Below the pieces are notes generated by a model. The model saw only the letters and a program-made list of their open reading frames with translations. It was not told the origin of the DNA and searched no databases. From a virus, in IMG/VR virus record IMGVR_UViG_3300019458_000067, positions 1 to 37,575 of that record: DNA of 37,575 nucleotides; one strand, written 5' to 3'. Within the stretch, counting starts at the first letter, position 1. Every line of letters starts with the position of its first letter. Positions 4,078 through 37,575 of the stretch are shown in pieces. The position numbers and the translations under genes are program-made.

Positions 4078-4413
4078 TTAACAAACGGTTATTTTCGTAT
4101 CTTGCGAGGAAGGCGCAGCGAAGCGCGCCAGCATGATCCACGTGTCCGTCATTTTAGGTTCCCTTCCAGCGACGCGGCGGCTGGCTTGATCGGGGGGTAG
4201 TTCGGGCCGATGCCGCCTTTCAGCGATCAGGGCGGCGATGGTCCCCACGAAGCCGGACGCGACGGTATGGAAGCCGTCCACTTCTGCCGCATATCGGTTC
4301 AACAAGTTCGAGGCAAAGCTGGCGAACTTGACCCGGAACCAACTATTTCCATTTGGGAAATAGTTCGCCTCGAAGGGGGCGCAGCCGTTCGCGGGCCTGT
4401 GCAGACCGCTCCG
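4078..4413 (-). other. GC-rich stretch of doubtful coding status, possible insertion scar
   Basis: This stretch is visibly richer in G and C than the genes around it and reads poorly as phage coding sequence. The minus-strand frame down to TAA at 4078 is open after the stop at 4414 but lacks a convincing start: a TTG at 4305, or an ATG at 4152 with GGAAGGG upstream giving a 24-residue peptide MTDTWIMLARF.... It contains a perfect 10-bp hairpin (4341-4365). Its right edge shares 40 bp with the IS transposase. It could be the decayed remnant of a past insertion. I do not assign a gene. Confidence 0.4.
4341..4365. repeat. Perfect 10-bp hairpin
   Basis: AACTATTTCC (4341-4350), a 5-base loop, then GGAAATAGTT (4356-4365). 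It is an AT-rich palindrome inside a GC-rich stretch, 36 bp from the transposase fragment. There is no T-run on either side, so it is unlikely to be a terminator. Confidence 0.75.
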
Positions 4414-4441
4414 TCAGGCCAGCGCTTCGCCTCGAAATAGG
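4402..4441 (-). repeat. 40-bp exact copy of part of the IS1595-type transposase gene
   Basis: Bases 4402-4441 on the minus strand are identical to 7143-7182 on the plus strand, inside the transposase (about residues 23-36, YFEAKRWPDGAVC). The same peptide frame is open here in a 50-residue ORF starting at 4451. Both flanks diverge immediately. Forty identical bases cannot be chance. They point to a fragment of the same or a close element, or to template switching or gene conversion. Confidence 0.9.
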
Positions 4442-4638
4442 CGCGGTTCATCGTTTCCACTTCGGCGAGGGACTGCCGCCTGAATTTGCGACGGATTAAA
4501 AATGTGCAACCATCCGTCGTCGTGTTCAACAATGACGCGTTCTTCGCCGCGCGAAGTTTCGACGCTTCCTCGATATGTGCCGGGAAACGGATAGCCAGAA
4601 GTTTTGACAACACGGTCGCCAATATTTAATTTAGTCAT
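4414..4638 (-). CDS. Small beta-rich protein, KOW/SH3-like pattern, unknown
   Basis: A 74-residue protein starting at the ATG at 4638 (GAGGTGG upstream): MTKLNIGDRVVKTSGYPFPG, then VIVEHDDGWLHIFNPSQIQ. The IGDRVVKTSGYPFPG...LHIFNP pattern recurs in short proteins of alphaproteobacteria and their phages, and suggests a small SH3-like barrel. The last 20 or so residues (RRSGNDEPRLFRGEALA) run through the 40-bp transposase-like fragment in another frame, so the natural C-terminus has probably been replaced. Coupled to the preceding gene by ATGA overlap. Function unknown. Confidence 0.75.
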   Translation of the reverse strand: MTKLNIGDRVVKTSGYPFPGTYRGSVETSRGEERVIVEHDDGWLHIFNPSQIQAAVPRRSGNDEPRLFRGEALA

Positions 4639-6311: not shown

Positions 6312-6635
6312 ATGACCGTTATCAACGCAGATAGCTTCGAAGCAACCACCGCTGAAACTGTTTCTTATAGGGTTATCGAAACCGGCACGGTTGAAGTTAC
6401 GTTGGGTCATGAAACTCGCCGCGTTGAAGCGCAACGCCGGACGACGTTTGAAGGCAGCAATATTTCGATTGTGGCTTCCGGCTTTAGCGGACGTTACATT
6501 ACTGACGCGAAGCGTTGGCCCACCGTTGTTCGCATGGTAATTCGGTCGGATGGCCGCCAAACCGAAACTGCACACTTCCGTGGCGACCCTGACCCGAAGC
6601 TTAACAAAATGCGCGCTCTCTCCTTCGCAGCGTAA
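6312..6635 (+). CDS. Small soluble protein, unknown (107 aa)
   Basis: Starts at the ATG at 6312 with AAGGA 8 bases upstream; an apparent longer ORF from 6222 lacks a ribosome-binding site and includes the promoter. The 107-residue protein is beta-rich (SYRVIETGTVEVTLGHETRR..., ALSFAA end) with no recognised domain. A strong hairpin follows, so it may be a highly expressed monocistronic early gene. Confidence 0.7.
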   Translation: MTVINADSFEATTAETVSYRVIETGTVEVTLGHETRRVEAQRRTTFEGSNISIVASGFSGRYITDAKRWPTVVRMVIRSDGRQTETAHFRGDPDPKLNKMRALSFAA

Positions 6636-6641
6636 TCGACA

Positions 6642-6667
6642 CTGGGGCGGCCGGAAGGCCGCCCCAG
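6642..6667 (+). terminator. GC hairpin after the 6312 gene
   Basis: An 11-bp perfect stem, CTGGGGCGGCC / GGCCGCCCCAG with a GGAA tetraloop, 6 bases after the stop. There is no T-run, so it may stabilise the 3' end or act as a weak or factor-assisted terminator. Confidence 0.6.
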
Positions 6668-6700
6668 ACCAACCCGAAAGGAATTTGAAATGCTAACTTG

Positions 6701-6708
6701 CAAAGAAA
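6701..6708. repeat. Target-site duplication, left (CAAAGAAA)
   Basis: Eight bases directly left of the IS, identical to 8117-8124. An 8-bp duplication is the hallmark of IS1595-family insertion. Confidence 0.95.
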
Positions 6709-6734
6709 GGGAATTATATACTTGACTCCCGAAA
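6709..6734 (+). repeat. IS left terminal inverted repeat
   Basis: Pairs with 8091-8116; two mismatches (CT against GA at positions 13-14 of the repeat). Confidence 0.95.
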
Positions 6735-6750
6735 TACTTTCGGGTAGATA
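6722..6750 (+). promoter_or_regulatory. Promoter at the IS left end with an overlapping palindrome
   Basis: TTGACT (6722-6727), 17-base spacer, TAGATA (6745-6750). The spacer is exactly the palindrome CCCGAAA-TAC-TTTCGGG (6728-6744), a position typical for a repressor site. The first IS gene encodes a winged-helix protein that could bind it. The -35 box lies inside the inverted repeat. Confidence 0.5.
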
Positions 6751-6797
6751 TCTTCTTGTCATGTGGATAACCCTGTGACGAGAAAGGATGTTTTGAT

Positions 6798-7076
6798 ATG
6801 ACGAAGCTGACTGAAACGGAGGCGCAAGTCCTTACTGAACTGGACGGTGCGCCGGACAAGACCTTGCGTGAGGCCACATTGCGGAGTTGTGCTCCGCACA
6901 TCGGCATCATGCCGCGTCGGCTGCCTTTGGTGATGAGCCGCCTGATGAAACTCGGCTTCGTGGAGAAGAGCGAATATCGTGGAGAGACGACACCCCGTCG
7001 GTTCAACCTTACCCCTACCGGCGAAGCCGCATTGAAGGCGTGGCAGGACGACGTGCCGGAGATGACGGTGTTCTGA
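6798..7076 (+). CDS. Winged-helix DNA-binding protein, IS cargo
   Basis: A 92-residue protein with AAGGATG upstream of the ATG. The C-terminal half (LVMSRLMKLGFVEKSEYRG, then TPRRFNLTPTGEAAL) has the recognition-helix-then-wing layout of MarR/PadR-type winged helices. Its stop overlaps the transposase start (ATGA), so expression is coupled. It may repress the IS promoter or bind the ends; both are inference from position. Confidence 0.65.
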   Translation: MTKLTETEAQVLTELDGAPDKTLREATLRSCAPHIGIMPRRLPLVMSRLMKLGFVEKSEYRGETTPRRFNLTPTGEAALKAWQDDVPEMTVF

Positions 7077-7612
7077 TGAGCAAATCCACCATCAGCACCT
7101 TTGAACTGTTCCAGATGTTCCCTGACGCCGAGAGCGCCCGCACCTATTTCGAGGCGAAGCGCTGGCCTGACGGAGCGGTCTGTCCAGCTTGCAACGAGGC
7201 GGAGCGCATCGGCACCCGCAAGGGCGGCTTCTACCGCTGCAACGCCTGTCTGACGGACTTCACCGTCCGCACCGGCACCATCTTCGAGAAGTCGAAGGTG
7301 CCGCTGCACAAGTGGCTCTACGCGATGTATCTGCTGGTCACCGCCCGCAAAGGCATTAGCAGCCTTCAACTCGCCAAACAGATCGGCGTCACGCAAAAGA
7401 CGGCCTGGTTCATGCTCCAGCGCCTCCGTGAGGCATGTGGCAACGACCCGACGCAACTGGCGGGCGTTGTCGAAATCGACGAAACCTACGTCGGCGGCAA
7501 AGAGGCCGCGAAACACGAGGACAAACGCCTGAAGCTCGACCGTCTCGCCAGCTTGTTCAGCGCGGCCATTGGCCGTCGCCTCACCTACAAGGAGTTGATT
7601 GCATGCCGGTGA
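7076..7612 (+). CDS. IS1595-family transposase, truncated after the first catalytic Asp
   Basis: A 178-residue protein against about 300 or more for complete relatives. Residues 36-58 are the N-terminal zinc ribbon (CPAC...CNAC). Residues 63-125 match the family's conserved helical region (TGTIFEKSKVPLHKW...GVTQKTAWFMLQRLR). VVEIDETYVGGKE carries the first DDE aspartate at D135. After about residue 150 the sequence leaves the family and ends GRRLTYKELIACR, so the remaining catalytic residues are absent. Probably inactive. Its N-terminal region shares 40 bp with 4402-4441. Confidence 0.88.
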   Translation: MSKSTISTFELFQMFPDAESARTYFEAKRWPDGAVCPACNEAERIGTRKGGFYRCNACLTDFTVRTGTIFEKSKVPLHKWLYAMYLLVTARKGISSLQLAKQIGVTQKTAWFMLQRLREACGNDPTQLAGVVEIDETYVGGKEAAKHEDKRLKLDRLASLFSAAIGRRLTYKELIACR

Positions 7613-14186: not shown

Positions 14187-16349
14187 ATGGCTAGAAACTC
14201 AATTGCCGCTGACGACCCTGTTCGCCCTTTTGACGGAGAGGCGGACGACATTGAGGAAAACTCCCGTTGGGTTCCAAACGAGTTCGGCGACGAGGACGAA
14301 TTTCACCAGCACGTCTTGAAGCTGCGCCAAAACGCGCTCGACGCCGATAGGCTGAACCGTTACGCGGCGCTTGATGACTTACAATTCGTGGCCGATTTCA
14401 ACGGGATGCAGTGGGACGAAAGCGTCCGGGCCGCTCGCCAGTCACAAGGCCGCCCCTGCATCACAACCAACGTCTTGCCGCAGTTTATCGGTCAGGTTGT
14501 GGGCGACATGACGATCAACAAGCCTGCGATCAAGGTTCGCGCGGCAGAGGACGGCGACAAGGACGTTGCGGACATTCGCGAGGGGTTGATCCGGGCTATT
14601 CAAAATCAGTCCGACGCGCAGCGCATCTTTGTTCGTGTGGGCACAAATCAGGTGTCTTGCGGCATCGGCAACTTTAAGGTTGCTCTTGATTATTCAAATC
14701 GCGAAGTGTTCGATCAGGATATTTTCATTCGCGAAATTCCTAACCCTTTGGCGGTTATTTGGGATCCCGGTTCGATTGAAATTACCGGCAAAGATGCAAT
14801 GTATTGTTTCGTTGACGATTTGCTAAGTCTCGACGAGTTCAAACGCGAATGGCCCGACGTTCCAGCAACGCCTGTTGGCGATGAACTGCCGGTTCAGGAT
14901 ATTGAAGGTTGGTATTCGGGCAATACCATCCGAATTTCAGAATATTGGGCAATTCACGAAGAACCCGCCACGATTGCCATGTTTACGGACGGTTCGACGC
15001 GTTATATCGACCCGGACGAAGAAATCGACCCTTCGCAAATCATAAAGCAGCGCGAAACAACGCGGCGGTTTGCCGTCATGTATTTGATGACCGGCGCGCA
15101 ATTTCTTGACGGCCCTTATCGGTTGCCAATCGACAGACTTCCGATTTTTCGGGCCACGGGTCGTGAAGTCTATGTATCAAACAACCGCGTTCGCTACGGT
15201 TTGACGCGCTTTATCAAGGATCAGCAGCGCCTTAAAAACTACGCGGACAGCCAGATTGCCGAGTTTCTTTCAATGGCTCCGCGCGCGCAGTGGATTGCCG
15301 ATGAAATTGCAGTTGAAGGCAGGCAAAACAGTTTCCGAAATGCCCACATGGCGGGCGATCCGCTGCTTGAATTTAATGCTGGCGGACAAATCCAGCGCGT
15401 TGACCCGCCCCCGTTTCCGACTGCATTTTTGAACTGGTCGCAGCAGCAATCGCAGGCAATGAAAGACGCCAGCGGTCTGCACGATGCTTCGCTCGGCATT
15501 CGGTCAAACGAAACCAGCGGTAAAGCCATTCTGGCTCGCCAACAGGAAGGCGACGTTGCTGTTGTCATGTATCATGACAATCTGAACGCTGCAATTTCAG
15601 AAGCTGGCCGCGTCATAAACGACCTTATAGGCTATACTTACGATACAATGCGGACAATTCGCATTGTTGGCGAAGATGACGCCGCCAAAGTCATGCAGAT
15701 CAACAATCCTAACGATCCCGATAGCCCGAACCTTTCGATTGGCAATTATGACGTTTGGGTTGAAACCGGGCCGTCCTATTCGACCAAGAGAATGCAGGCT
15801 GCGGAAAGCATGATCGAGTTCATGCGCGCGGTTCCGCAGTCCGCAATGGTCATCGGCGATCTTATCGCAAAGGCGATGGATTGGCCCGATAGCGGCACGA
15901 TTGCCGACCGGCTCAAGGCGTCCATGCCGCCTGAGATTTCAGGGGCCGGGGAAGAACCTAGCCAAGAACAGATGCAGCAGCAGGCTATGGCGGCGCAGCA
16001 GGCTCAGGAACAGCAACAGTTACAGCAAATGGCTATCGCGCTCGATATGCGCCTGAAAGAGGCTCAGGTGCAGCGTGAGGAAGCTGAGGCGCAACGGGCG
16101 CAGGCGGAAGCCATGCGGGCGTATGCAGAGGCCAGCGCGGCATCCCAAGGCGCGGAAAATCGCAAGACAAACGCCGAAGCCGAGAAGGCTGAAGCTCAAG
16201 CCGCCGAAGCGTGGGCGCGCGCCGATCTTGCCGACGACCGCGTTCATATCGACCGCGCCGTTGCGTTCAATAAAATTTCTCCCCCGGTGTCGGACGACTG
16301 GGAACCGGAGCAGAAGTCCGCGAATGAGGAACAAAATGCCAATTACTGA
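14187..16349 (+). CDS. Portal protein, P22 gp1-like
   Basis: A 720-residue protein, about the length of P22 gp1. The N-terminal half has typical portal features: LDDLQFVADFNGMQWDESVR, GRPCITTNVLPQFIGQVVGD and RIFVRVGTNQVSCGIGNFKV. The C-terminal about 120 residues are a Gln/Ala/Glu-rich long helix (the barrel region of P22-type portals). It forms the dodecameric DNA gateway at one capsid vertex. It overlaps the scaffold gene by 14 bases. Confidence 0.9.
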   Translation: MARNSIAADDPVRPFDGEADDIEENSRWVPNEFGDEDEFHQHVLKLRQNALDADRLNRYAALDDLQFVADFNGMQWDESVRAARQSQGRPCITTNVLPQFIGQVVGDMTINKPAIKVRAAEDGDKDVADIREGLIRAIQNQSDAQRIFVRVGTNQVSCGIGNFKVALDYSNREVFDQDIFIREIPNPLAVIWDPGSIEITGKDAMYCFVDDLLSLDEFKREWPDVPATPVGDELPVQDIEGWYSGNTIRISEYWAIHEEPATIAMFTDGSTRYIDPDEEIDPSQIIKQRETTRRFAVMYLMTGAQFLDGPYRLPIDRLPIFRATGREVYVSNNRVRYGLTRFIKDQQRLKNYADSQIAEFLSMAPRAQWIADEIAVEGRQNSFRNAHMAGDPLLEFNAGGQIQRVDPPPFPTAFLNWSQQQSQAMKDASGLHDASLGIRSNETSGKAILARQQEGDVAVVMYHDNLNAAISEAGRVINDLIGYTYDTMRTIRIVGEDDAAKVMQINNPNDPDSPNLSIGNYDVWVETGPSYSTKRMQAAESMIEFMRAVPQSAMVIGDLIAKAMDWPDSGTIADRLKASMPPEISGAGEEPSQEQMQQQAMAAQQAQEQQQLQQMAIALDMRLKEAQVQREEAEAQRAQAEAMRAYAEASAASQGAENRKTNAEAEKAEAQAAEAWARADLADDRVHIDRAVAFNKISPPVSDDWEPEQKSANEEQNANY

Positions 16350-18607: not shown

Positions 18608-18865
18608 ATGGCAAATCCTTCAAATGCGTTTCCGCAGTCGCCGCCGAAAGTTTTTGACGACGGCGCGGGGGCAGTTGTCTTGCAGCCTAAGAATATGTCA
18701 GTCATTACGACTGGCGTTATTACGACGGCGGCAACGTCCACATCGCCTTTCGGTTTCGCGACGGCTGCGCAGGCCGATGCGCTTGTTACTGCCGTCAATG
18801 CAATGCGCGCAGCTTTGATTTCTGCCGGTATTGTTACGACGACAACGGCAACGATTGGTATTTAA
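18608..18865 (+). CDS. Small Thr/Ala-rich virion-associated protein, possible decoration protein
   Basis: An 85-residue protein with AAAGGAAAT upstream. The Thr/Ala/Val-rich sequence (MSVITTGVITTAATSTSPFG) has a helical end (AVNAMRAALISAGI). A small gene directly after the coat gene often encodes a head decoration protein, but no family is recognised. Its stop overlaps the glycosyltransferase start (TAATG), which couples the two. Confidence 0.6.
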   Translation: MANPSNAFPQSPPKVFDDGAGAVVLQPKNMSVITTGVITTAATSTSPFGFATAAQADALVTAVNAMRAALISAGIVTTTTATIGI

Positions 18866-19485
18866 TGGTTAAGGGGAGAGCGTTCATTGCAACGCCGACA
18901 TATCGCGGCGAGGTTGTTTGGCAGTATGCTCACAGCCTTTGCAGGGATACAATGTTGGCGGCGCAAGCCGGGTGGTTTGTAGATGCGCCTTGGTGCGTCA
19001 ATGATACACTTGTTCACTTTGCGCGAAATAAAGCACTGAACGCTTTTCTTACGACCGAGCACGATTACCTTGTTTTTATTGACGGAGATTTGGGTTGGGA
19101 AAAAGGTGGTTTGGTAAAACTGCTTGAAACCGAAGGCGACATCGTAGGTGGTCTTTACCGCACCAAAAATGATAATCTTCATTACCCGTTCAACATGCTA
19201 GACCAATTGCCGCTTGCCCAAGGGGCTGTCAGCGGACCAGTCGCCAGTGTTCCAACGGGCTTTATGAAGATCAGTCGAAAAACGGCGCACAGAGTTCTTG
19301 CTGATTACCCGGAACCTTTCGAGTTTGAAAAAGACGAAAAAGGTACTTGGGGCGAAGATTTGACCTTTTGCAACCGTGCGCGCCGTTGCGGTTTGTCTGT
19401 TGTGGCACGAACAGACATTGAGTTTGCCCACATAGGGCCGAATGTCTGGAAGGGCCGCTTTACAGATGACGTAAAGGAACCTTGA
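18865..19485 (+). CDS. GT-A-fold glycosyltransferase
   Basis: A 206-residue protein. It starts RAFIATPTYRGEV, a GT-A Rossmann strand. It has DYLVFIDGDLGWE with a DxD-type metal/sugar-nucleotide motif (D73-G-D75), SGPVASVPTGFMKISR, then TWGEDLTFCNRARRCGL with the ED pair (164-165) and a closing H189. These features match glycosyltransferases of the family 2/Anp1-like group. Its translational coupling to the small protein after the coat suggests that it glycosylates a virion protein, or a host surface sugar. The acceptor cannot be told from sequence. Confidence 0.8.
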   Translation: MVKGRAFIATPTYRGEVVWQYAHSLCRDTMLAAQAGWFVDAPWCVNDTLVHFARNKALNAFLTTEHDYLVFIDGDLGWEKGGLVKLLETEGDIVGGLYRTKNDNLHYPFNMLDQLPLAQGAVSGPVASVPTGFMKISRKTAHRVLADYPEPFEFEKDEKGTWGEDLTFCNRARRCGLSVVARTDIEFAHIGPNVWKGRFTDDVKEP

Positions 19486-29178: not shown

Positions 29179-29348
29179 TAGTCTGCGCTCTTGGCGGCTT
29201 CCGCCTCATAGTGACGAATGAATGTCCTGATAATTTGGTCCGCAAGCGTCTTGCATTTGCCATAGTCAATATTGGGAACCATCGCTTTAATATCGCGAAC
29301 AATATTGTCGCGCAGATCACCGGGCATTCCGGTTAGTTCTTCATTCAT
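29178..29348 (-). CDS. Small protein, unknown (56 aa)
   Basis: MNEELTGMPGDLRDNIVRDI... ends HYEAEAAKSAD. AAGGA lies 7 bases before the ATG, and the ATG overlaps the DNA polymerase stop (ATGA). Helical, acidic, no family recognised. Confidence 0.65.
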   Translation of the reverse strand: MNEELTGMPGDLRDNIVRDIKAMVPNIDYGKCKTLADQIIRTFIRHYEAEAAKSAD

Positions 29349-31228
29349 ATCAATTTCCTTCGTTCTTGTTTTTTGTAAAAACCGATGTCATGCAAAACTT
29401 GTTCGGCAGTGTTTATATACCAATCGTAATCAATATCCGGCTCTAAACCGCCAAGTTGCATTAAAGGCTTTGCGCCTTCGGTTTTCGGCACACTGTCGCC
29501 TTTGAGTTTGTTTATTGTTCCGGTTTCGCCTTTGGCATAATACCAGCGAACAACTTTCCCCAAATAAACACCATTTTTGTGAGCGCCTCCTGTAGCTTTT
29601 CTGACCGAAACGAAACGCCGCATATCCTCGCAAGAACATATTGTATCAGATAAAGAACGCCCGAGCGATAAAAACTTTTCGATTGCATCGTTGACAACCA
29701 GCGTTTCTGGATTTTTCGATAGTACCGAATTAAGAGCCGATCCTTTTTCGCTGAAAACTCCTTTGGCTTTTGTTTCGCCGTTTGTTTTTATTGCCAAATA
29801 GTTGTTAACGTCGCGAGAATAAACAGCTTTGTATTGAGTTTCTTCGGTAAAGAAACCTGTTATATTTTCCCATGTGCCCACAAGCTGTTCGACTTTTGAT
29901 TTTTCAGACTTGGCGCATTTTATAATTAGGCCGTCAGTATTGGCTGAAATAACAGAGACGCCGCTTTCCTCCAAAAGTTCAATTAGCATCAGCAAGGCAA
30001 GTTGGCCTGTTATTGTTGTTTGTATAAGCAAGTCTGGGGCATACAATCTTGAATGTGGCGAACCTAGTTTGCCAAATGTCCCGTTGATTGTGATTTTCAA
30101 AGCATCAGCGGTCACTTTGTCTTTGCCTTTTGCCTCAAGCCGTTTTTTAACCAGTTTCTCAAAAACCTTTAGGAAGCTCCTTCCTATGTGCTTGGGATAC
30201 AATTCTTGATTTAGAATGATAGCAGGGTAATAGCTGGCTACGTCGCGGTCGAGCAGAAGCGTCTCATCGGCAGCAATGTGGCAAATTGACTTTTCGGTCG
30301 AGTGAAGGCCGCCGTTCCCCATTTTATAAACCGACTGCCCGATAGCTACGGAAAGCGCGGCCACCGATGGCGGAAGCTGAGGCGAGCCGCCTTTGTCGAG
30401 CCTGAAAATCGCGTCTTCAACGGTTGCCAGTGCGGCTTGCAATTGAACCGTCGAAAAAGAAAGCCACTCTGGCCGCTTATAGCGAAACGAAAAATCCTCT
30501 TTGAGCTTTGGTTTTCTAATAGGATAGCCAGTCAGTTTTTGAATTTCTGTCGATATAACGACTTCTGCAATTTGGGCGTCTGATTTAGATCGTAAATCTT
30601 CTCCGTATTCGCTACCCAATTTTTCGCGCAAAGCAATGTGGGGGCGAAGTTCGTTATAAAGAAGTTCGGTATTATCCAAATCGTTAAAGCAATAATCTGC
30701 AATCAGCGCCTTTTGATCGTCGCTCAACGGTTCGTTTGGATCGAACGGCAAATCTTGCATACGCTCGCAATGCAAACGGCCAGCATAAGTTTTCAAACTT
30801 TCGGACAGCGGAGCCACTTCAATAATGTCTATATGGTTGTATTTTTGAGAATTGCGAACGCGCTTATCTTCTAAAATAATTTCATCAGAAAGCCGCTTCA
30901 ATTCGGCAATTGTTTTGCCTTTGACCGCCGCTTCGATAATTGGAATATCGTACTTTAGCGAGTTGAACCCGATAATTTTGTATGCCCACATCATATAGCC
31001 AAGGTGTGCAACATCAATATTCATGTACGTTTGGCTGGCAATATGCTTGAAGCCGACAAAAAAGAAATTGGGATAAAGTTCGACATCAAATATAACCTCG
31101 TCGCCTAGCGGCCAAGGCTCGGTCGGCCTTTTCTTTTCTGTCGGTTTGTAATCGAACAGGCGCAACTCCTCGCGTTTTATGGTGTAAGGTTTGACCTTTT
31201 CGAGTTTTGGGAGGTTATCGAAAAACAT
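29345..31228 (-). CDS. Family B DNA polymerase
   Basis: A 627-residue protein. Exonuclease: Exo I FDVELYPN (D48, E50), Exo II NSLKYD (89-94), Exo III YCFNDLDNT (from Y179). Polymerase: motif A DRDVASYYP (D329), motif B KITINGTFGKLG (378-389), motif C NTDG (430-433). All catalytic positions are present. The protein is compact compared with T4-type enzymes and has no visible terminal-protein region, so protein priming is not indicated. It should be the main replicative enzyme, working with the clamp-like protein encoded just upstream, whose stop overlaps its start. Confidence 0.93.
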   Translation of the reverse strand: MFFDNLPKLEKVKPYTIKREELRLFDYKPTEKKRPTEPWPLGDEVIFDVELYPNFFFVGFKHIASQTYMNIDVAHLGYMMWAYKIIGFNSLKYDIPIIEAAVKGKTIAELKRLSDEIILEDKRVRNSQKYNHIDIIEVAPLSESLKTYAGRLHCERMQDLPFDPNEPLSDDQKALIADYCFNDLDNTELLYNELRPHIALREKLGSEYGEDLRSKSDAQIAEVVISTEIQKLTGYPIRKPKLKEDFSFRYKRPEWLSFSTVQLQAALATVEDAIFRLDKGGSPQLPPSVAALSVAIGQSVYKMGNGGLHSTEKSICHIAADETLLLDRDVASYYPAIILNQELYPKHIGRSFLKVFEKLVKKRLEAKGKDKVTADALKITINGTFGKLGSPHSRLYAPDLLIQTTITGQLALLMLIELLEESGVSVISANTDGLIIKCAKSEKSKVEQLVGTWENITGFFTEETQYKAVYSRDVNNYLAIKTNGETKAKGVFSEKGSALNSVLSKNPETLVVNDAIEKFLSLGRSLSDTICSCEDMRRFVSVRKATGGAHKNGVYLGKVVRWYYAKGETGTINKLKGDSVPKTEGAKPLMQLGGLEPDIDYDWYINTAEQVLHDIGFYKKQERRKLI

Positions 31229-32187
31229 TATTTCAAAACCTTTGAAATCATGCCTCTAGTCTTGTTGCCGAAAAACGGCGCTCGATCAGAATGCGTTTCA
31301 AAATCGATCGTTGTTGCAACAGTTTTTAATAGCAAAAACTGCTTTGCGTTAAAAGAGCATTTCGCCTTCAAACCTTCGCAATCGTAAGTAGCACCAACCA
31401 GTGCACCTTTTGTTTCAACGTAGCTTGAGCGAACTTTATTTTCTTCAAAACGAACAAGGCCGTCCTCCGAAAACTCGCTCATGGCTTTAACAGCTTCAAA
31501 CAAGGCGTCGTCAATTGCAACAGGCGTTGCAGCCACGTTCAAAACTTTGTCAATATCGGGCCATTGGCCTTGCATCCGCGAGCATCGAATATAAGCGCCG
31601 TTTTCATACCAGAACGTCAAAGAGTTGTCCGAAAACCCGAAACCGCAAAGTCCGTCGTATTTTGAAACGATTTGACCGAACCGCCTTGGGACGATCAAAT
31701 TCGGCGGCATGTTGACGCCGTGCCAGAATTGCAAAATGACGTTGCGGTTTGTGCTTGAGATTGTGCCGCCGTTCAACAGGAATGAAATTTCAACCAGCGT
31801 TTCGGCTTCCTCGCGAACAAGCGGCATGAGTGCTTTGAAGCCTTGCCGAATGTCGTCGGTGATCGGCGCAACCATTGGGTCCGGCGCAATCATCGGGATT
31901 GTCGCCGGGTCGGCGCAAGGGATGGTCGCGCGCAGCTTTTTGCCCTTGACGACGACGCGACGATTTTCTTGCTCCGCAATCGAGAACTTGTCTCCGGCCA
32001 GCTTCAAGGCGCTCGCCAGCCGCTCGGCATGTGGGCACAGCGCCAAATCCTCGCCAATCGGATGACCGATAGCCAAGGAGCCGTCGAACGCGCTCACATA
32101 GCCCCCGGCGAGCCGCAAATAGGCGCTGCTGTCAGCGACGCCGCCCGTGGCGGGGAGGACGAAGGAAACGGCTTCTAGAAGGTTCAC
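31228..32187 (-). CDS. Sliding-clamp-like protein (DNA polymerase III beta type)
   Basis: A 319-residue protein, similar in length to bacterial beta clamps (about 370). Strand-rich sequence with clamp-like blocks: AYLRLAGGYVSAFDGSLAIG, ALKLAGDKFSIAEQENRRVV and a C-terminal repeat CSFNAKQFLLLKTVATTIDF. I recall phage proteins with this pattern annotated as beta clamp homologues. It lies between the DnaQ-type exonuclease and the polymerase with stop/start overlaps on both sides, which supports a role as processivity factor. Sequence identity to true clamps is low, so this is probable rather than certain. Confidence 0.65.
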   Translation of the reverse strand: MNLLEAVSFVLPATGGVADSSAYLRLAGGYVSAFDGSLAIGHPIGEDLALCPHAERLASALKLAGDKFSIAEQENRRVVVKGKKLRATIPCADPATIPMIAPDPMVAPITDDIRQGFKALMPLVREEAETLVEISFLLNGGTISSTNRNVILQFWHGVNMPPNLIVPRRFGQIVSKYDGLCGFGFSDNSLTFWYENGAYIRCSRMQGQWPDIDKVLNVAATPVAIDDALFEAVKAMSEFSEDGLVRFEENKVRSSYVETKGALVGATYDCEGLKAKCSFNAKQFLLLKTVATTIDFETHSDRAPFFGNKTRGMISKVLK

Positions 32188-32711
32188 AGCCCTAATTCCT
32201 TAAGCTTGAAATAAATCCGCTTGCAGGCTTGCACGTCGGCCATAGCGTCGTGGGCGTTTTCAAATTCTTCGTTAAAAAAGTGTCTATGTGCTTCGGTCAG
32301 CTTAGGCCACTTAAATTTACCATAATTCCCCGGCACTTTACAAATATCAGTTGATTTTTGCATTGTGCAAAAAGTCTGCGGACCCCAAAGAGGGTAAGGA
32401 AATTTAAAGCTATTTGTACACATTTCAACGTCAAATTTGATATTGTGGCCTATCAAAATTGAACTGTCCGTCAAAAAGCGTTCGTACAGTTTTTGCGCAA
32501 TGTGCAGCGGTACACCGTTCGCCGCCATTTCGTCCGTTATCCCATGAACTTCCATAGCCTTCGGATGAATTGGAATTTCAGGATTTACGAGCGTGTTAAC
32601 AGTTGCAATCGTCGTTCCGTCATCTTTGCAAAAATCCATTGCAATCTGACAAATTCGAGCGGTTGAACCTAATCCGGTTGTTTCGGTATCAAGAAACAAA
32701 ATCATTTCCAT
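32184..32711 (-). CDS. DnaQ-like DEDDh 3'-5' exonuclease
   Basis: A 175-residue protein. Exo I FLDTETTGL (D8, E10), Exo II ILIGHNIKFD (D94), Exo III ENAHDAMADV (H154, D159). This is a complete DEDDh set, as in DnaQ and RNase T. The start at 32711 (TAGGA upstream) is preferred over the ATG at 32705. The polymerase already has its own proofreading domain, so this enzyme may process ends, primers or RNA. It overlaps both neighbours. Confidence 0.92.
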   Translation of the reverse strand: MEMILFLDTETTGLGSTARICQIAMDFCKDDGTTIATVNTLVNPEIPIHPKAMEVHGITDEMAANGVPLHIAQKLYERFLTDSSILIGHNIKFDVEMCTNSFKFPYPLWGPQTFCTMQKSTDICKVPGNYGKFKWPKLTEAHRHFFNEEFENAHDAMADVQACKRIYFKLKELGL

Positions 32712-34354
32712 TCAATTCCTACAATTTGAGGATATTTAGGTTTGTTGGTCCAAACGCGAACGGCGCTCGGTTGCCTAGCGTAGCTACATTGCGCCAAAAG
32801 CTGTTCGTTCGTTTCAGGCGGAATACCGTGGCATCTTTGCCTGAACCATTCGCGGCCTTTGTGCCTAACAAATTCTTTTTCATTTTCGACGCTAACCCAT
32901 TCGTGGAAAACTTCGTTTCCGCAATAATACGAAACTTTTATCGAGAACGGCAATTCGTCTTGCCGTTTGTCAGAATTTGCTCGGCGTATGTCGCCCTTGA
33001 CGTGCTTTGCATAAGTAACGTGCGTCACTGGAAACGTGTCAATTTGCGGCAAATCGGAACGCATTATTTCCTCATTGGCGGCGGTTTTTTTAAGTTTCTG
33101 CTGAAACGTAAATTCAAACCCGCAAGCTACGCAAAACCTCGCTGAAAGATGATTGTAAACGCCGCAATGATCGCACTCTTTAACCGGCGCTTCACCCGGC
33201 GGCCCTTTGCCTTTCTGCTGCGGAATTACAGGATCATTGATCGGCCCCAAACGCTTTGTGTTTCCCGCAAAATCCAGAACGAGCGCATCAACCTTTCCGG
33301 GCGCAACTCGCATCGCGCGGCCACACATTTGAACCCAAAGCCCGGTTGACATTGTTGGGCGCAACATGCCCACAAGGTCAATTGGCGGGTGATCGAAGCC
33401 CGTCGTAAGAATATCTTTGTTGACAACACACCGAAACTCGCCGCGTTTGAACGCCTCAATTCGACTGTCGCGCTCACTTGTGGGCATCTTAGAATGCACA
33501 ACGGTCGTCGGAATATTAAATTGTTCGTTCAGCGTTTTGCACAAATGTTCAGCATGTTCGATACCGCTGGCGAATACGATCCACGAACGCCGATTTTGAC
33601 CATAAAGGCAAAGTTCCTTTAGAGCTAGATAGTTTACAATGTCGTTGTCAACGGCCTCTTGCAATTCGTGATTATTGAAATCGCCAGTGTTACTCAAACT
33701 TACGTTTGAAACGTCAAGTGAAGTCTTGGTCTTTTTCGAAACGAGCGGCGACAAAAACCCTTGGGCTATAAGATGCGCAAAACCTTCCATGTTGCACATA
33801 TTGAAAGCAACGTCTGTAAAGATATTGCCGTTCGTCAAACATCCTAAACCTAAGCGGTAAGTGGTAGCAGTCAGACCTATGATTTTTAACCACGGATTTG
33901 TTTTTTGAAGCTGGCCTATCAAGTCTTGATATGAAGTTTCGTCTTTAGGCGAAACCAAATGCGCCTCGTCAATCAACATCAAATCGCGATGGCCCATGTC
34001 ATGCTTAATCATGGATTTGACACCGCCGAAAATTATCGGCTCGTGAATTGCGCGCTGTTTCAATCCGGCAGAATGAATGCCAATCGGCGCGTTCGGCCAA
34101 ATTCTAAGCATTGTGTTGTAGTTCTGCCTAATTAGCTCTTTGACATGCGTTGACATAAGAATTTTTGTGCCGGGATAGGCCGTCAAAGCGCGTTTGCAAA
34201 TTTCAGCAACAATCAGCGCCTTCCCGGCTCCGGTTGGCAAAGCTAAAAGCGGATTGGCTCTTTTTGGTTGCCCGGTTTCATCTGCGCCCCTGTTTTTAGC
34301 GAAATAGCTAAAAATCGTTTCAACGGCTTGAGATTGATAGTCGCGGAGTTGCAT
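32702..34354 (-). CDS. SF2 DEAD/DEAH-box helicase with C-terminal zinc ribbon
   Basis: A 550-residue protein. N-terminal Q-like motif (LRDYQSQAVE), Walker A LPTGAGKA (39-46), DEAH box LIDEAH (127-132), motif III GLTATTYRLG, and the helicase C domain with FDHPPIDLVGMLRP and QMCGRAMR. Near residue 400 a zinc ribbon CDHCGVYNHLSARFCVACGF follows, then a beta-rich tail. Likely the replicative or recombination helicase of the leftward operon; the RAD25/UvsW-like layout suggests fork or branch remodelling. Confidence 0.92.
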   Translation of the reverse strand: MQLRDYQSQAVETIFSYFAKNRGADETGQPKRANPLLALPTGAGKALIVAEICKRALTAYPGTKILMSTHVKELIRQNYNTMLRIWPNAPIGIHSAGLKQRAIHEPIIFGGVKSMIKHDMGHRDLMLIDEAHLVSPKDETSYQDLIGQLQKTNPWLKIIGLTATTYRLGLGCLTNGNIFTDVAFNMCNMEGFAHLIAQGFLSPLVSKKTKTSLDVSNVSLSNTGDFNNHELQEAVDNDIVNYLALKELCLYGQNRRSWIVFASGIEHAEHLCKTLNEQFNIPTTVVHSKMPTSERDSRIEAFKRGEFRCVVNKDILTTGFDHPPIDLVGMLRPTMSTGLWVQMCGRAMRVAPGKVDALVLDFAGNTKRLGPINDPVIPQQKGKGPPGEAPVKECDHCGVYNHLSARFCVACGFEFTFQQKLKKTAANEEIMRSDLPQIDTFPVTHVTYAKHVKGDIRRANSDKRQDELPFSIKVSYYCGNEVFHEWVSVENEKEFVRHKGREWFRQRCHGIPPETNEQLLAQCSYARQPSAVRVWTNKPKYPQIVGIEWK

Positions 34355-34371: not shown

Positions 34372-35184
34372 CTAAACTATAGATTGCCATTGCCCGCAAC
34401 CTTCTTTTACAAAATCCTTAGGGATTACTTTTTCTACTAAGCCGCATTGCCATTCTGAATTTTCAACTGGCTTTGCAAACTTGCAGGAACGACAATTTTT
34501 TTCCGGCAAATGATTTGAATGACAAATGTCGTTAAAATGACACCATTTGCATTTGAAAAACGTTGGCGTTTCGCTTATCTTTTTTGGTGGAACCTGACTA
34601 AAAATTATTTCGCCGGCTTTGGCGACATGCAAAGCGCCAACCGTAGGATCGAGCGCAACCCGTTCAAAATAAAATTCATCGGTGTTCTTATTGACCGCGC
34701 AATAAAGTCCGTTTGGCAAATCGTAGAACGGGCCGTAAGTCTGCATCTGCACAAGGTGCTGAGGTTTAGATAATTCCAAACCGTTCTTTTCAAGTTCTTT
34801 AAAAGACTTGTCGCCGTGCGTTTTAAACTCAAGAAGAAATGAACCGTGTCCGGTTATTTGAGCTATACCGTCCAGCGAGCCGCCAAAATGACCATTGTGG
34901 GCACTTATGCGAAACTGCTTACCTGTGTCAGGATCAACTTCTTGAACTTGTATGCCCACAAGTGAGAGTGCTTTTACAAATCGGGCTTCCTCAAGTTGCC
35001 CGCGTTCGAATAGACGATACATTCGCCCGTCAAACTGTTCTAATTTCAACCAGCGAAATGTATTCCAAATGTAGCGCGAACATTCATGGCCGATGATCGA
35101 AGCGCCTAGATGCGACCTATGGCCTTCGCGGAAATGCTCAACGCAAGTAGCATCGACATTTTGCTTTAGTTTTGCGGTGTCCAT
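34372..35184 (-). CDS. Cas4-like PD-(D/E)XK exonuclease with Cys cluster
   Basis: A 270-residue protein. The N-terminus has SHLGASIIGHECSRYIWNTF with C35; GGSLDGI gives D105 and LLEFKTHG gives E119/K121, the PD-(D/E)XK core. Near the C-terminus KCKWCHFNDICHSNHLPEKN followed by CRSCKF offers several cysteines; C35 plus three of these could hold a Cas4/AddB-type iron-sulphur cluster. Such phage exonucleases resect ends for single-strand annealing or Sak4-type recombination. It is not part of a CRISPR system here. Confidence 0.82.
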   Translation of the reverse strand: MDTAKLKQNVDATCVEHFREGHRSHLGASIIGHECSRYIWNTFRWLKLEQFDGRMYRLFERGQLEEARFVKALSLVGIQVQEVDPDTGKQFRISAHNGHFGGSLDGIAQITGHGSFLLEFKTHGDKSFKELEKNGLELSKPQHLVQMQTYGPFYDLPNGLYCAVNKNTDEFYFERVALDPTVGALHVAKAGEIIFSQVPPKKISETPTFFKCKWCHFNDICHSNHLPEKNCRSCKFAKPVENSEWQCGLVEKVIPKDFVKEGCGQWQSIV

Positions 35185-35323: not shown

Positions 35324-35872
35324 TTAGCCCGGTGCGCCCCATGGCCCTGCTGCGCCAGCTTGGACACCCCAAGGGTTGTTCGAAGGGGACGCATTCTCCG
35401 CAGGCACGGTAAACGTTGGCGTCGGAGGAGCAGGGTTTACCATAGGCGCTGCACCCGCTCGCACTACTTCGCTGGGTTTACGCATATCGCTCGTGTAAAT
35501 AGCAACAACGTCGGTCATTTCAGGGCGATTTTTCTGCGGACCGATTTCAACAACGAACGGACGCTTGCAAAGTTCGTCAGTGTTCTTGAATTTGAAAACG
35601 CCGGTTACATAGCAATAGGCGGAAAGCTGCTTCTGTGCAATCTCAACCGCCATTGCGTTAGAATTGTGGAGGTTGATACGATCAGTATGGCGAACGCCTT
35701 TTGCGGGACCGTCAACAGCCTCCATCGTCAGAGCAAGAAAACCACCGTCCCCTTTGTTAGTTGACTTGAGTTCGGTTTCAACAATCATAACCGGATGCTT
35801 TCCGATAGGAAGCATTCCCCCGCCGCCATATTGTGGCGTGTAATTAGTTGCGTCAAATTCAAACGATGGCAT
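35324..35872 (-). CDS. Phage ssDNA-binding protein (DUF669-like)
   Basis: A 182-residue protein with AAGGA 9 bases before the ATG. The N-terminal OB-like block (LPIGKHPVMIVETELKSTNK, GGFLALTMEAVDGPAKGVRH, INLHNSNAMAVEIAQKQLSA) is that of the DUF669 single-strand-binding family. The Pro/Ala/Gly-rich, disordered tail ends WGAPG. Lies next to the Sak4-like ATPase, its usual partner. Confidence 0.85.
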   Translation of the reverse strand: MPSFEFDATNYTPQYGGGGMLPIGKHPVMIVETELKSTNKGDGGFLALTMEAVDGPAKGVRHTDRINLHNSNAMAVEIAQKQLSAYCYVTGVFKFKNTDELCKRPFVVEIGPQKNRPEMTDVVAIYTSDMRKPSEVVRAGAAPMVNPAPPTPTFTVPAENASPSNNPWGVQAGAAGPWGAPG

Positions 35873-35874
35873 TT

Positions 35875-36702
35875 TTACTTTCCTTCTCGATTGTAAAGGT
35901 CAATTCCTTTAGATTTGTAAATTGCGTCTGCTAGATAATTCCAACTGTTCTCCTTCGGAATTGCAATTGTTTCGGTCAAATCGTATCTGTTTTTAGCGAC
36001 CCATTGGGGCGAACGATCAACAGCCAGCATTCGGCCTTGGTTGGCCGAAACTGCCATCTTATGATTGTCCTCTTTGGTTACGAAAAGGGGTTCGTGCATG
36101 AAACCGATAAGGTCGGCCCATTGGGTTATAAATTCGCGCGGCCCATAGGTTTTACCGTCTTTTGGCGAATACAAAAGCAATTCCCATTGCAAATATTCGC
36201 CGTAAGCAGGGTCGATAACTTTGCTGGCAAACGTATGACACGTAATAACGATGTTTATTTTGGCATATTTTGCAAGCTCATCGCAACGCGCAATAAAATC
36301 CTGAAACAAATTTCGCATGTGAACGAACGCTTTACCGTAACCGCCGTGAGCCGTCGCCATTGTCAGCTTTTTCTTTTTGTGGTCCGGATCGGCTTCGATG
36401 GTTGCAATTTCTATCATGCGTTCAAGCGCCGTAGCACTGTCAAACACCAGCGTTTTGTGGGCAAATTTACCAGTCTGCGCAGCACCTCTAATTTCGTCCA
36501 TTAGGCCGATAAGTTGCAGCCACGTTGCAATCTGTGGCGTACGATGGGTGGTGATCGACGCATAGCCGTTTTCCAGCGGGATCAGAAGCGAACCCGGCGC
36601 GCCACAAGCAAGCGTCGTTTTGCCAACGCCTTCGGTGCCACTGATGACAATTCGCTGACCTTCAAACGAAGGACCGCTTGTGGTTTGCGCTAGAAGACTC
36701 AC
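35875..36702 (-). CDS. Sak4-like RecA-fold ATPase (single-strand annealing/recombination)
   Basis: A 275-residue protein. P-loop SGTEGVGKTT (21-30), Walker B region TLVFDSATALE, and NIVITCHTFA, which is the layout of the AAA_24/Sak4 family. With the adjacent DUF669 SSB it forms the standard Sak4-SSB recombination pair; the Cas4-like exonuclease would supply ends. Together they may form concatemers for packaging. Overlaps both neighbours by few bases. Confidence 0.85.
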   Translation of the reverse strand: MSLLAQTTSGPSFEGQRIVISGTEGVGKTTLACGAPGSLLIPLENGYASITTHRTPQIATWLQLIGLMDEIRGAAQTGKFAHKTLVFDSATALERMIEIATIEADPDHKKKKLTMATAHGGYGKAFVHMRNLFQDFIARCDELAKYAKINIVITCHTFASKVIDPAYGEYLQWELLLYSPKDGKTYGPREFITQWADLIGFMHEPLFVTKEDNHKMAVSANQGRMLAVDRSPQWVAKNRYDLTETIAIPKENSWNYLADAIYKSKGIDLYNREGK

Positions 36703-37130
36703 GATTTAGGTTCCACAATCTCAAAAGTCGGCATTCCCGGCGAAGTTGTCAGAACGCTATCGACAATTCCTTTGATTGCGCGTTGTTGTTCCGTATCTTC
36801 TAGCTTTTTGTATTCGCTGATGGAAAGTTCAGCTTTCCATTTGAACAAGCGTTCAGCAATAAACGAGCCTTCATTGCCGATATTGGCAATGCGATTTTCT
36901 GCATCCGCTACTTTGTTCTTGTCTGCGTCCAATTTATAATTGGTTTTCGCTGTCAATTTGGCTTTCCAACCATTGCCAATATCGAGCGTGTTTACGCCGT
37001 CGGCAGCATCAGGAAAGAGCGAAGTCAAAATTTCATGGCGCAAATTCGCTTCATGTTCTTTGACGGCTTCGAGCGACCTTTTCGCTTCCATCCAATTTGT
37101 TAACAATGCGCTCTGTTCGACGGTCAACAT
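36699..37130 (-). CDS. Small helical/beta phage protein, unknown (143 aa)
   Basis: A 143-residue protein: helical N-terminus (NWMEAKRSLEAVKEHEANLR), central beta-like DGVNTLDIGNGWKAKLTAKT, helical C-terminus. Its pattern (L-x-A-x-K-x-x-E-x-x-L-R-x-x-i, then NTL-l-GNGWK) recurs in hypothetical proteins placed just before Sak4/SSB genes in many phages. Starts inside the stop region of the hexapeptide-repeat gene. Likely part of the recombination module; function not known. Confidence 0.7.
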   Translation of the reverse strand: MLTVEQSALLTNWMEAKRSLEAVKEHEANLRHEILTSLFPDAADGVNTLDIGNGWKAKLTAKTNYKLDADKNKVADAENRIANIGNEGSFIAERLFKWKAELSISEYKKLEDTEQQRAIKGIVDSVLTTSPGMPTFEIVEPKS

Positions 37131-37575
37131 TGTTTGTTCTCCGTTGTCGGTTCAATAAATTCGTTCAGTTCGGCCATGCGCTCAAGGTGATCGACGAGAA
37201 CAAGGCTCTCACGCCCTAGTTGCGTGTCGCCGCGCGTTTCGGCCCAGTGCTTTCGCGCCTGCTCGAAAGTGAAGTAACGACACCCTGCAATCAAACGTGA
37301 GCCTTCTGGTGTAGGCGCGACGAGGAATGTATAGCCATCGGAGCGGGTGGCGGCGATGATAGAAATATAAATCCGCGCATCGCCAGAGACTTGCGCATTG
37401 CCATAGACTTGCGCATCGCCAGAGACCCACGCATTGCCATAGACTTGCGCATCGCCATAGACTTGCGCATTGCCATAGACTTGCGCATCGCCAGAGACCC
37501 GCGCATTGCCAGAGACCCACGCATTGCCAGAGACCCGCGCATCGCCATAGACTTGCGCATCGCCATAGACTTGCG
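37124..37575 (-). CDS. Hexapeptide-repeat protein, C-terminal part (continues from 1-401)
   Basis: This is the 3' part of the junction-spanning gene; 37473-37575 duplicates 1-103. Repeats AQVYGD, ARVSGN, AWVSGN continue to about residue 166. An 83-residue unique tail then begins RIYISIIAATRSDG, contains GSRLIAGCRYFTFEQA and ends KQC. A repeat domain followed by a small aromatic, Cys-containing tail is the usual architecture of this phage family. The stop TGA (37126-37124) overlaps the start ATG (37130-37128) of the next leftward gene, indicating translational coupling. The two other minus-strand frames through the repeat are also open, but only because the repeat unit lacks stop codons. Confidence 0.85.
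   Translation of the reverse strand, partial: QVYGDAQVYGDARVSGNAWVSGNARVSGDAQVYGNAQVYGDAQVYGNAWVSGDAQVYGNAQVSGDARIYISIIAATRSDGYTFLVAPTPEGSRLIAGCRYFTFEQARKHWAETRGDTQLGRESLVLVDHLERMAELNEFIEPTTENKQC
37374..37575. repeat. 18-bp minisatellite, right part
   Basis: Continuation of the same 18-bp tandem array across the circular junction, about 11 units including the 103-bp overlap. On the minus strand it runs into the unique 3' part of the hexapeptide-repeat gene at about 37373. Confidence 0.95.
37473..37575. repeat. Terminal direct repeat, right copy
   Basis: Exact second copy of bases 1-103. Removing one copy leaves a circle of 37,472 bp and an unbroken gene across the junction. Confidence 0.85.

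Follow-up and report, generated by a model that had tools for sequence, protein, structure and literature searches.

How does a phage with two unrelated DNA-synthesising enzymes copy its genome? The question is raised by the IMG/VR virus record IMGVR_UViG_3300019458_000067, analysed here over its full length of 37,575 bp (the window). A family B DNA polymerase (PolB; 29345-31228, 627 aa), a 319-aa putative sliding clamp (31228-32187, GTG start) and a DnaQ-like exonuclease (32184-32711, 175 aa) are encoded on its minus strand, and a primase on its plus strand (738-2993). An initial annotation, made from the sequence alone, had placed the three minus-strand open reading frames (ORFs) at these positions, and its identification of polymerase, clamp and DnaQ holds. 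The ORFs overlap by 1 base (clamp/polymerase) and by 4 bases (DnaQ/clamp), as expected of a single operon. We consider it likely, on the basis of predicted structures and sequence comparison, that the window carries the elongation half of a phage-encoded replisome, in which the primase would provide primers, PolB would be tethered to the clamp by docking of its terminal tails, and the host would load the ring.

Sliding clamp

The 319-aa protein was assigned by profile search to PHROG_947, "DNA polymerase processivity factor" (E = 1e-45). Its AlphaFold2 model, built on an alignment of 50 viral homologues, has a predicted local distance difference test score (pLDDT) of 95.1 and shows three domains and six helices. 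Bacterial DnaN rings are the best PDB matches over the whole length of the clamp (Foldseek E ~1e-17, TM score ~0.8), and alignment of the model with bacterial DnaN gave Z = 27.6 and a root-mean-square deviation of 2.4 over 311 of 319 residues, at 12-15% identity (VIA-align). The six pore-lining helices carry a net charge of +5 in the window protein and the remainder -7, compared with +3.9 and -9.8 on average in the family. In a residue alignment taken from a low-probability hhalign match, pocket columns T172, L177, P242 and V247 (E. coli DnaN numbering) are mostly conserved in kind, as T, L/I/M, P and V/I, and that of R246 is not. The protein resembles bacterial DnaN (the beta clamp) in its full-length three-domain fold, positive pore helices and, probably, most residues of the peptide pocket. 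It differs in sequence (12-16% identity), is shorter by ~47 residues and has no Pfam match. The clamp fold that had been proposed for this protein is borne out at the level of the monomer, and in its predicted structure the protein is a three-domain sliding clamp of the DnaN type. On DNA it would form a head-to-tail dimeric ring.

Family B polymerase

The polymerase belongs to PHROG_1252 (E = 6e-193) and has weak matches to the PolB families of Pfam and NCBIfam. PolB structures are the top Foldseek matches of its AlphaFold2 model (pLDDT 90). Across 39 aligned sequences the residues of ExoI (D48, E50), ExoII (D94) and ExoIII (Y179, D183) are intact, and those of motif A (DxxSYYP; D329, Y334, P335) and motif B (KxxxNG; K378, N382, G383) are invariant or nearly so. 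Motif C, which reads ANTDG in the window, keeps T431 and D432 in the 39 sequences, and its usual first aspartate is asparagine in all of them. A 2020 survey of PolB describes divergent groups with altered motif C, and the present siphophage group is not named in the passages searched (PMC7544198). Motifs A and B are separated by 49 residues and motifs B and C by 54. Protein-primed PolB of the phi29 type carry TPR1 and TPR2 insertions between these motifs, and such insertions do not fit the spacing found here. With ExoI-III intact, motifs A, B and C in place and the short spacing between them, the enzyme is, by its motifs, a primer-dependent, proofreading PolB. No terminal protein gene was recognised in the window, in agreement with the initial annotation, among many small ORFs without an assigned family.

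Polymerase tails and polymerase exchange

The gene beside PHROG_947 clamps encodes PolB in most loci and, in others, an unrelated family A polymerase (PolA; PHROG_17, pol I-like). Residues 1-13 and 623-627 of the window polymerase have pLDDT below 50 and are predicted to be disordered. The N-terminal tail (MFFDNLPKLEKVKP; 31187-31228, minus strand), a putative clamp-docking peptide, starts MFFDNLP, and an FF[DEN] tail of this kind is common to clamp-linked PolA and PolB. The C-terminal tail, KKQERRKLI (29345-29374, minus strand), appears to be a degenerate form of the QxxLFF/ISFF tails of relatives. The nearest relative (L094/L263), which also has a P22-like portal, has a polymerase 64% and a clamp 53% identical to those of the window. 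Its polymerase keeps FFDNLP, as IFFDNLP read from an apparent ATT start. At L094:5999-6010 this apparent start overlaps the clamp stop codon (TAATTTTC). The internal ELRLF of the window polymerase (pre-exonuclease region) was considered as a docking motif and rejected, as it is not conserved in L094.

All nine aligned clamp-linked PolA have an FFDD/LFDE-type start, which takes the form DS(I/V)G(L/M)FW(E/Q)D in a wider set, and many PolB share this PolA-type start. In other polymerases the tail is at the C-terminus, for example ETASLFF, KQISFF or EQVDMFA. PolB relatives without a clamp also exist; most of these have only 6-28 residues ahead of ExoI and no C-terminal tail. The N-terminal motif was found in 72 of 78 clamp-linked PolA, against a mean of 3.1 after residue shuffling. 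At least 35 residues precede ExoI in 100/105 clamp-linked PolB versus 4/23 clamp-less ones (Fisher 1e-14), and a C-terminal F tail is present in 67/94 versus 4/21. A hidden Markov model (HMM) of the PolA tag matches seven clamp-linked PolB tags over the whole ~45 residues (E <= 5e-6, best 3e-9; best shuffled control, E = 0.5), and the FF[DEN] codons vary synonymously. Given these counts, HMM matches and synonymous codons, the tails are probably clamp-docking peptides. The N-terminal tag of ~45 residues is probably a homologous module placed on two unrelated catalytic domains, and its form in the window would be shortened to MFFDN.

Parsimony on a tree of 184 clamps gives 16 changes of polymerase label, at least four of which are forced by well-supported branches. 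Sphingomonas phages Kimi and Birtae and Paracoccus phage R3 have the same cassette and clamps among the closest to that of the window (37-41% identity), but their polymerase is a family A (pol I-like) enzyme with a catalytic domain unrelated to the window PolB and the same MFFDD-type start. The PolA at L034:6876-8912 and other clamp-linked PolA match the NCBIfam model DpoZ (aminoadenine-incorporating polymerase) with E = 8e-71, below the cut-off of that model.

Clamp loading

In none of the 41 long contigs that carry the clamp or polymerase did the clamp-loader family PF13177 score above its cut-off; the family is present in 13 of 14 control genomes. Loading by the host is the simplest explanation of this absence, with the host DnaX complex as the probable loader. 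In many relatives there is a further candidate link to the host. A single-stranded-DNA-binding protein (SSB)-like acidic tip (DDDIPF) ends 40 of 189 non-redundant clamps. The tip is on the clamp in 26 loci with enough upstream sequence, and on a small zinc-ribbon protein directly upstream of the clamp in 24 by a strict count (~15 more by a looser one). In no locus with enough upstream sequence is it on both. Clamps with the tip include those of L007, L008, L009, L014, L017 and L056, and small ORFs between helicase and clamp with the tip include those of L002-L006, L010, L034 and L053. One of the partners bound by the C-terminus of E. coli SSB is chi, a subunit of the Pol III holoenzyme (PMC6783573). 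The tip may bear on clamp loading. The window has neither the tip on its clamp nor a zinc-ribbon protein upstream of it: no small zinc-ribbon ORF lies between its helicase and clamp genes, where the DnaQ gene occupies the slot that this protein has in many relatives, and the nearest zinc ribbon is the C-terminus of the Cas4-like protein.

A broader proposal, which we advance tentatively and at somewhat less than even chances, is that a portable clamp-docking tag (DSIGLFWED...PPxPxTxWxxPxxxPxLxxA, sometimes MFFD(D/N)) was retained while PolA and PolB were exchanged several times, so that the clamp and not the polymerase would be the conserved core of the replisome. The host loader would be recruited in many relatives by a DDIPF tip on the clamp or on the zinc-ribbon adaptor, and the window would have lost the tip and have DnaQ in place of the adaptor. 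If so, a routine "DNA polymerase processivity factor" label could become a testable rule, in which a ring and a short docking tag unite the replicase, with polymerases of unrelated families as interchangeable parts. Directly testable questions that follow are which loader serves a DnaN-type clamp in a loader-less phage, and whether the SSB-like tip recruits host machinery. This docking-tag hypothesis is of wider interest than the window, which itself is a known replication module on a different virion chassis.

Proposed replisome and alternative explanations

In the replisome that we favour, the AEP primase would make primers, and the DnaN-type ring would encircle the primed DNA and tether the primer-dependent PolB, which would copy the template and use its built-in exonuclease for proofreading. 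The same operon would supply the helicase, SSB, Sak4 and Cas4-like exonuclease, the host DnaX complex would load the ring, and the DnaQ-like enzyme would add a lineage-specific exonuclease. PolB most likely docks in the DnaN-type pocket of the clamp via its flexible terminal peptides, here mainly MFFDN, with a weakened C-terminal RKLI. As tails occur on both PolB and the unrelated PolA, the clamp would be the constant hub, around which the polymerase can be replaced. A comparable arrangement is found in T4 and RB69, where a short peptide at one terminus holds the family B polymerase gp43 on the clamp gp45, a two-domain trimer that has a phage loader, gp44/62. The window would share this peptide-mediated attachment of PolB to a phage clamp, but its clamp is DnaN-type and no loader was found.

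Several observations count against this replisome. The sequence similarity between the clamp and DnaN is weak: a PDB sequence profile search with the clamp alignment gave only a weak beta-clamp match (E = 0.09), so the case for homology comes from the structure and the PHROG assignment. A weak PHROG_947 match occurs elsewhere in 2 of 22 control contigs. The initial annotation had suggested a search for clamp-binding motifs in the polymerase tail. An N-terminal tail of the FF[DEN] type is indeed present, but the window polymerase matches the N-terminal tag HMM with E = 0.16 only, and its C-terminus (RRKLI) is weak and lacks F. Furthermore, the tail patterns were picked after inspection of the sequences, and the clamp-less control sequences are interrelated, so that the P values overstate independence.

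Might the clamp instead be mainly a recruitment platform for repair and recombination proteins (Sak4, Cas4 exonuclease, helicase and DnaQ) or a decoy for the host replisome, with a PolB that is processive by itself? The richness of the cassette in recombination genes, the existence of clamp-less PolB relatives and the weak tails of the window would suit such a role. We judge it unlikely in view of the close proximity of clamp and polymerase in 214 of 221 clamp-polymerase loci and the exchange of polymerase type rather than of clamp, with tails that track the clamp. About equally improbable is that the tails bind host DnaN and that the phage clamp has another partner. The tail motif does resemble bacterial clamp-binding peptides of the QLxLF type, and a Q/KxxLF-like tail persists in four PolB relatives that lack the clamp. 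However, 17 of the 21 clamp-less PolB with known C-terminus have no tail, the N-terminal tag does not fit in 19 of 23, and the phage clamp appears to have kept most of the pocket residues that would receive a peptide.

The tag shared by PolA and PolB could also be a functionless recombination scar at an exchange hot spot, since in most genomes it lies directly at the clamp-polymerase junction, where the genes often overlap. We give this slightly less credence than the two preceding possibilities, because the amino acid sequence of the tag is conserved while its codons vary synonymously, and because the tag extends over ~45 residues in PolA and PolB alike and persists across intergenic gaps of 160-250 bp (L032, L067) and an ATT start. 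Protein-primed replication of the phi29/PRD1 type, with a terminal protein that escaped detection among the many uncharacterised small ORFs, is suggested by a 627-aa PolB in a 37-kb genome. It is nevertheless highly improbable and was rejected: TPR1 and TPR2 do not fit, a primase and a clamp are present, and the contig ends lie inside a repeat gene rather than at inverted terminal repeats.

Primase arm and closure across the contig ends

The primase (PHROG_3022, E = 2e-198) has an N-terminal NrS-1/SaPI-like AEP Prim-Pol domain and an HBD-like region, followed by DUF3987; DUF3987 and the NrS-1 HBD were both matched in profile searches. Comparison with the PDB gave 7ola (E = 4e-34) and NrS-1 6a9w (E = 2e-19), with the DID and SPSGTGYH motifs aligned. 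The N-terminal AEP domain and both motifs are shared with the NrS-1 primase-polymerase and with the SaPI-type primase; in contrast to these, the window enzyme has a C-terminal DUF3987 and the genome also encodes its own elongating polymerase.

Both contig ends lie within one 18-bp array. On the minus strand, the two sides are in a single frame and encode one hexapeptide-repeat protein (VYGDAQ/VSGNAR repeats), of which the N-terminal part, cut by the contig end, is at 1-401 (starting MKTKRYELVKDD..) and the C-terminal part, which joins the arms, is at 37140-37573 (ending ..FIEPTTEN). The record is thus circular or permuted and is broken in the array. In L094/L263 only a repeat gene plus a few small ORFs lie between the primase arm and the DUF7173-Sak4 arm. 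Given this layout and the shared repeat gene, the two DNA-synthesising enzymes are neighbours, and the primase and polymerase arms are two divergent arms of a single module split by the contig break.

The array was also considered as an iteron origin. This was rejected because it codes for VYGDAQ/VSGNAR in a single frame on both sides; moreover, the place is taken by a different coding array, of 12-bp units, in the nearest relative and by no array in most relatives. At the position of the window array, L263:2915-4492 (plus strand) contains a 525-aa ORF in which a 12-bp unit occurs 46 times (NATRNATD repeats). In another P22-like relative, a 6-bp array of 43 copies lies upstream of the primase (L265:2504-2761), and no array is present at that position in most siphovirus relatives.

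Distribution of the replication cassette

Matches to the clamp, polymerase and primase were found in 294, 1201 and 477 phage records, respectively. With the clamp protein alone as query no viral contigs were matched, and an alignment was needed to find them. The cassette consists of the divergent AEP primase/DUF3987 followed by Sak4-SSB-Cas4-SF2 helicase-clamp-polymerase, and occurs in hundreds of siphophages of 42-45 kb, including phage 73, KL1, DLP1/2 and Halfdan. Phage 73-like viruses, KL1, Titanvirus, Lokivirus and sphingophages share an order in which the primase/helicase is on one strand, and MazG or small genes, RecA/Sak4, SSB, Cas4 exonuclease, helicase, a small ORF, clamp and polymerase are on the other. 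The window has the divergent primase and the order from Sak4 to polymerase, with adjacency via its contig ends. The primase is present in 40 of the 41 long contigs. Since the set travels together, strand initiation by the primase and elongation by a clamp-held polymerase, as initially proposed, remains the natural reading. The description of the replisome as unusual and minimal is not supported: it is a standard cassette of hundreds of isolated phages, and it also includes genes for SF2 helicase, SSB-like protein, Sak4 and Cas4-like exonuclease.

In DLP1 and DLP2 the module was already annotated as "DNA polymerase - replicative clamp - primase/helicase" (PMC4559383). The module of Septimatrevirus and Kilunavirus (Pseudomonas phage 73, Burkholderia KL1 and Stenotrophomonas DLP1/DLP2) has the same gene families, order and divergent primase as the window, with ~48% identity in the polymerase and ~31% in the clamp. 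These phages have siphovirus virions, an LFF-type polymerase C-terminal tail, an SSB-like DDIPF tip on the clamp and no DnaQ, whereas the window has a P22-like head, the MFFDN tail, no tip and an extra DnaQ. The replisome is therefore already known as a kind and is widespread, and its novelty here lies in the combination with a P22-like chassis and an extra DnaQ gene. No close nucleotide relative was found when 24 kb of the window were compared by Megablast with 50,697 phages. The cassette was also considered as a common part of prophages and rejected, as only one relative, on a contig of a metagenome-assembled genome, turned up in a scan of bacterial and archaeal genomes.

P22-like chassis and DnaQ-like gene

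The head genes are P22-like, as had been recognised initially, and include a portal (14187-16349, plus strand; PHROG_156, E = 1e-131), coat (PHROG_283) and scaffold (PHROG_8865). The window portal also matches P22-type portals by tblastn. Based on the portal and head-closure genes, the virion would have a short tail (podovirus morphology). A P22-type portal is present in 9 of the 41 contigs (one a fragment match), and occurs both with clamp and PolB (the window, L094) and with clamp and PolA (L034, L050), so the module has passed between virion types.

The DnaQ-like protein is a DEDDh 3'-5' exonuclease (RNase_T, E = 1.5e-19; PHROG_192) that just two of 256 loci encode, those of the window and of L094. 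We considered it as a stand-in for a dead PolB exonuclease and rejected this, as ExoI-III are intact in 39/39 aligned sequences. Its activity would be additional, and we infer that it is a lineage-specific extra exonuclease. No clamp-binding motif was seen in it by eye.

Other genes of the window

The operon continues 5' of the DnaQ gene, on the minus strand, with genes for a superfamily 2 (SF2; DEAD/ResIII) helicase (32702-34354) and a Cas4-like exonuclease with a C-terminal zinc ribbon (34372-35184; PHROG_1990, E = 1e-99). Also encoded are a DUF669 SSB (35324-35872; identified, like the helicase, by family profile matches), a Sak4-like RecA-fold ATPase (35875-36702; AAA_24, PHROG_124) and a DUF7173 protein (36699-37130; profile match). 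The last is the first recognised gene of the polymerase arm and has the same position in L263. Between the head and tail genes, 18865-19485 (plus strand) encodes a PHROG_1574 (unknown function) protein that is glycosyltransferase-like by eye. ORFs within 6494-7612 (e.g., 6887-7612, plus strand) resemble by eye an IS1595-like transposase or a zinc-ribbon sequence (FEAKRWPDGAVCPACNE...ETYVGGKE), and a piece at 4299-4622 on the minus strand (FEAKRWPDGAVC) resembles this IS1595-like/zinc-ribbon sequence.

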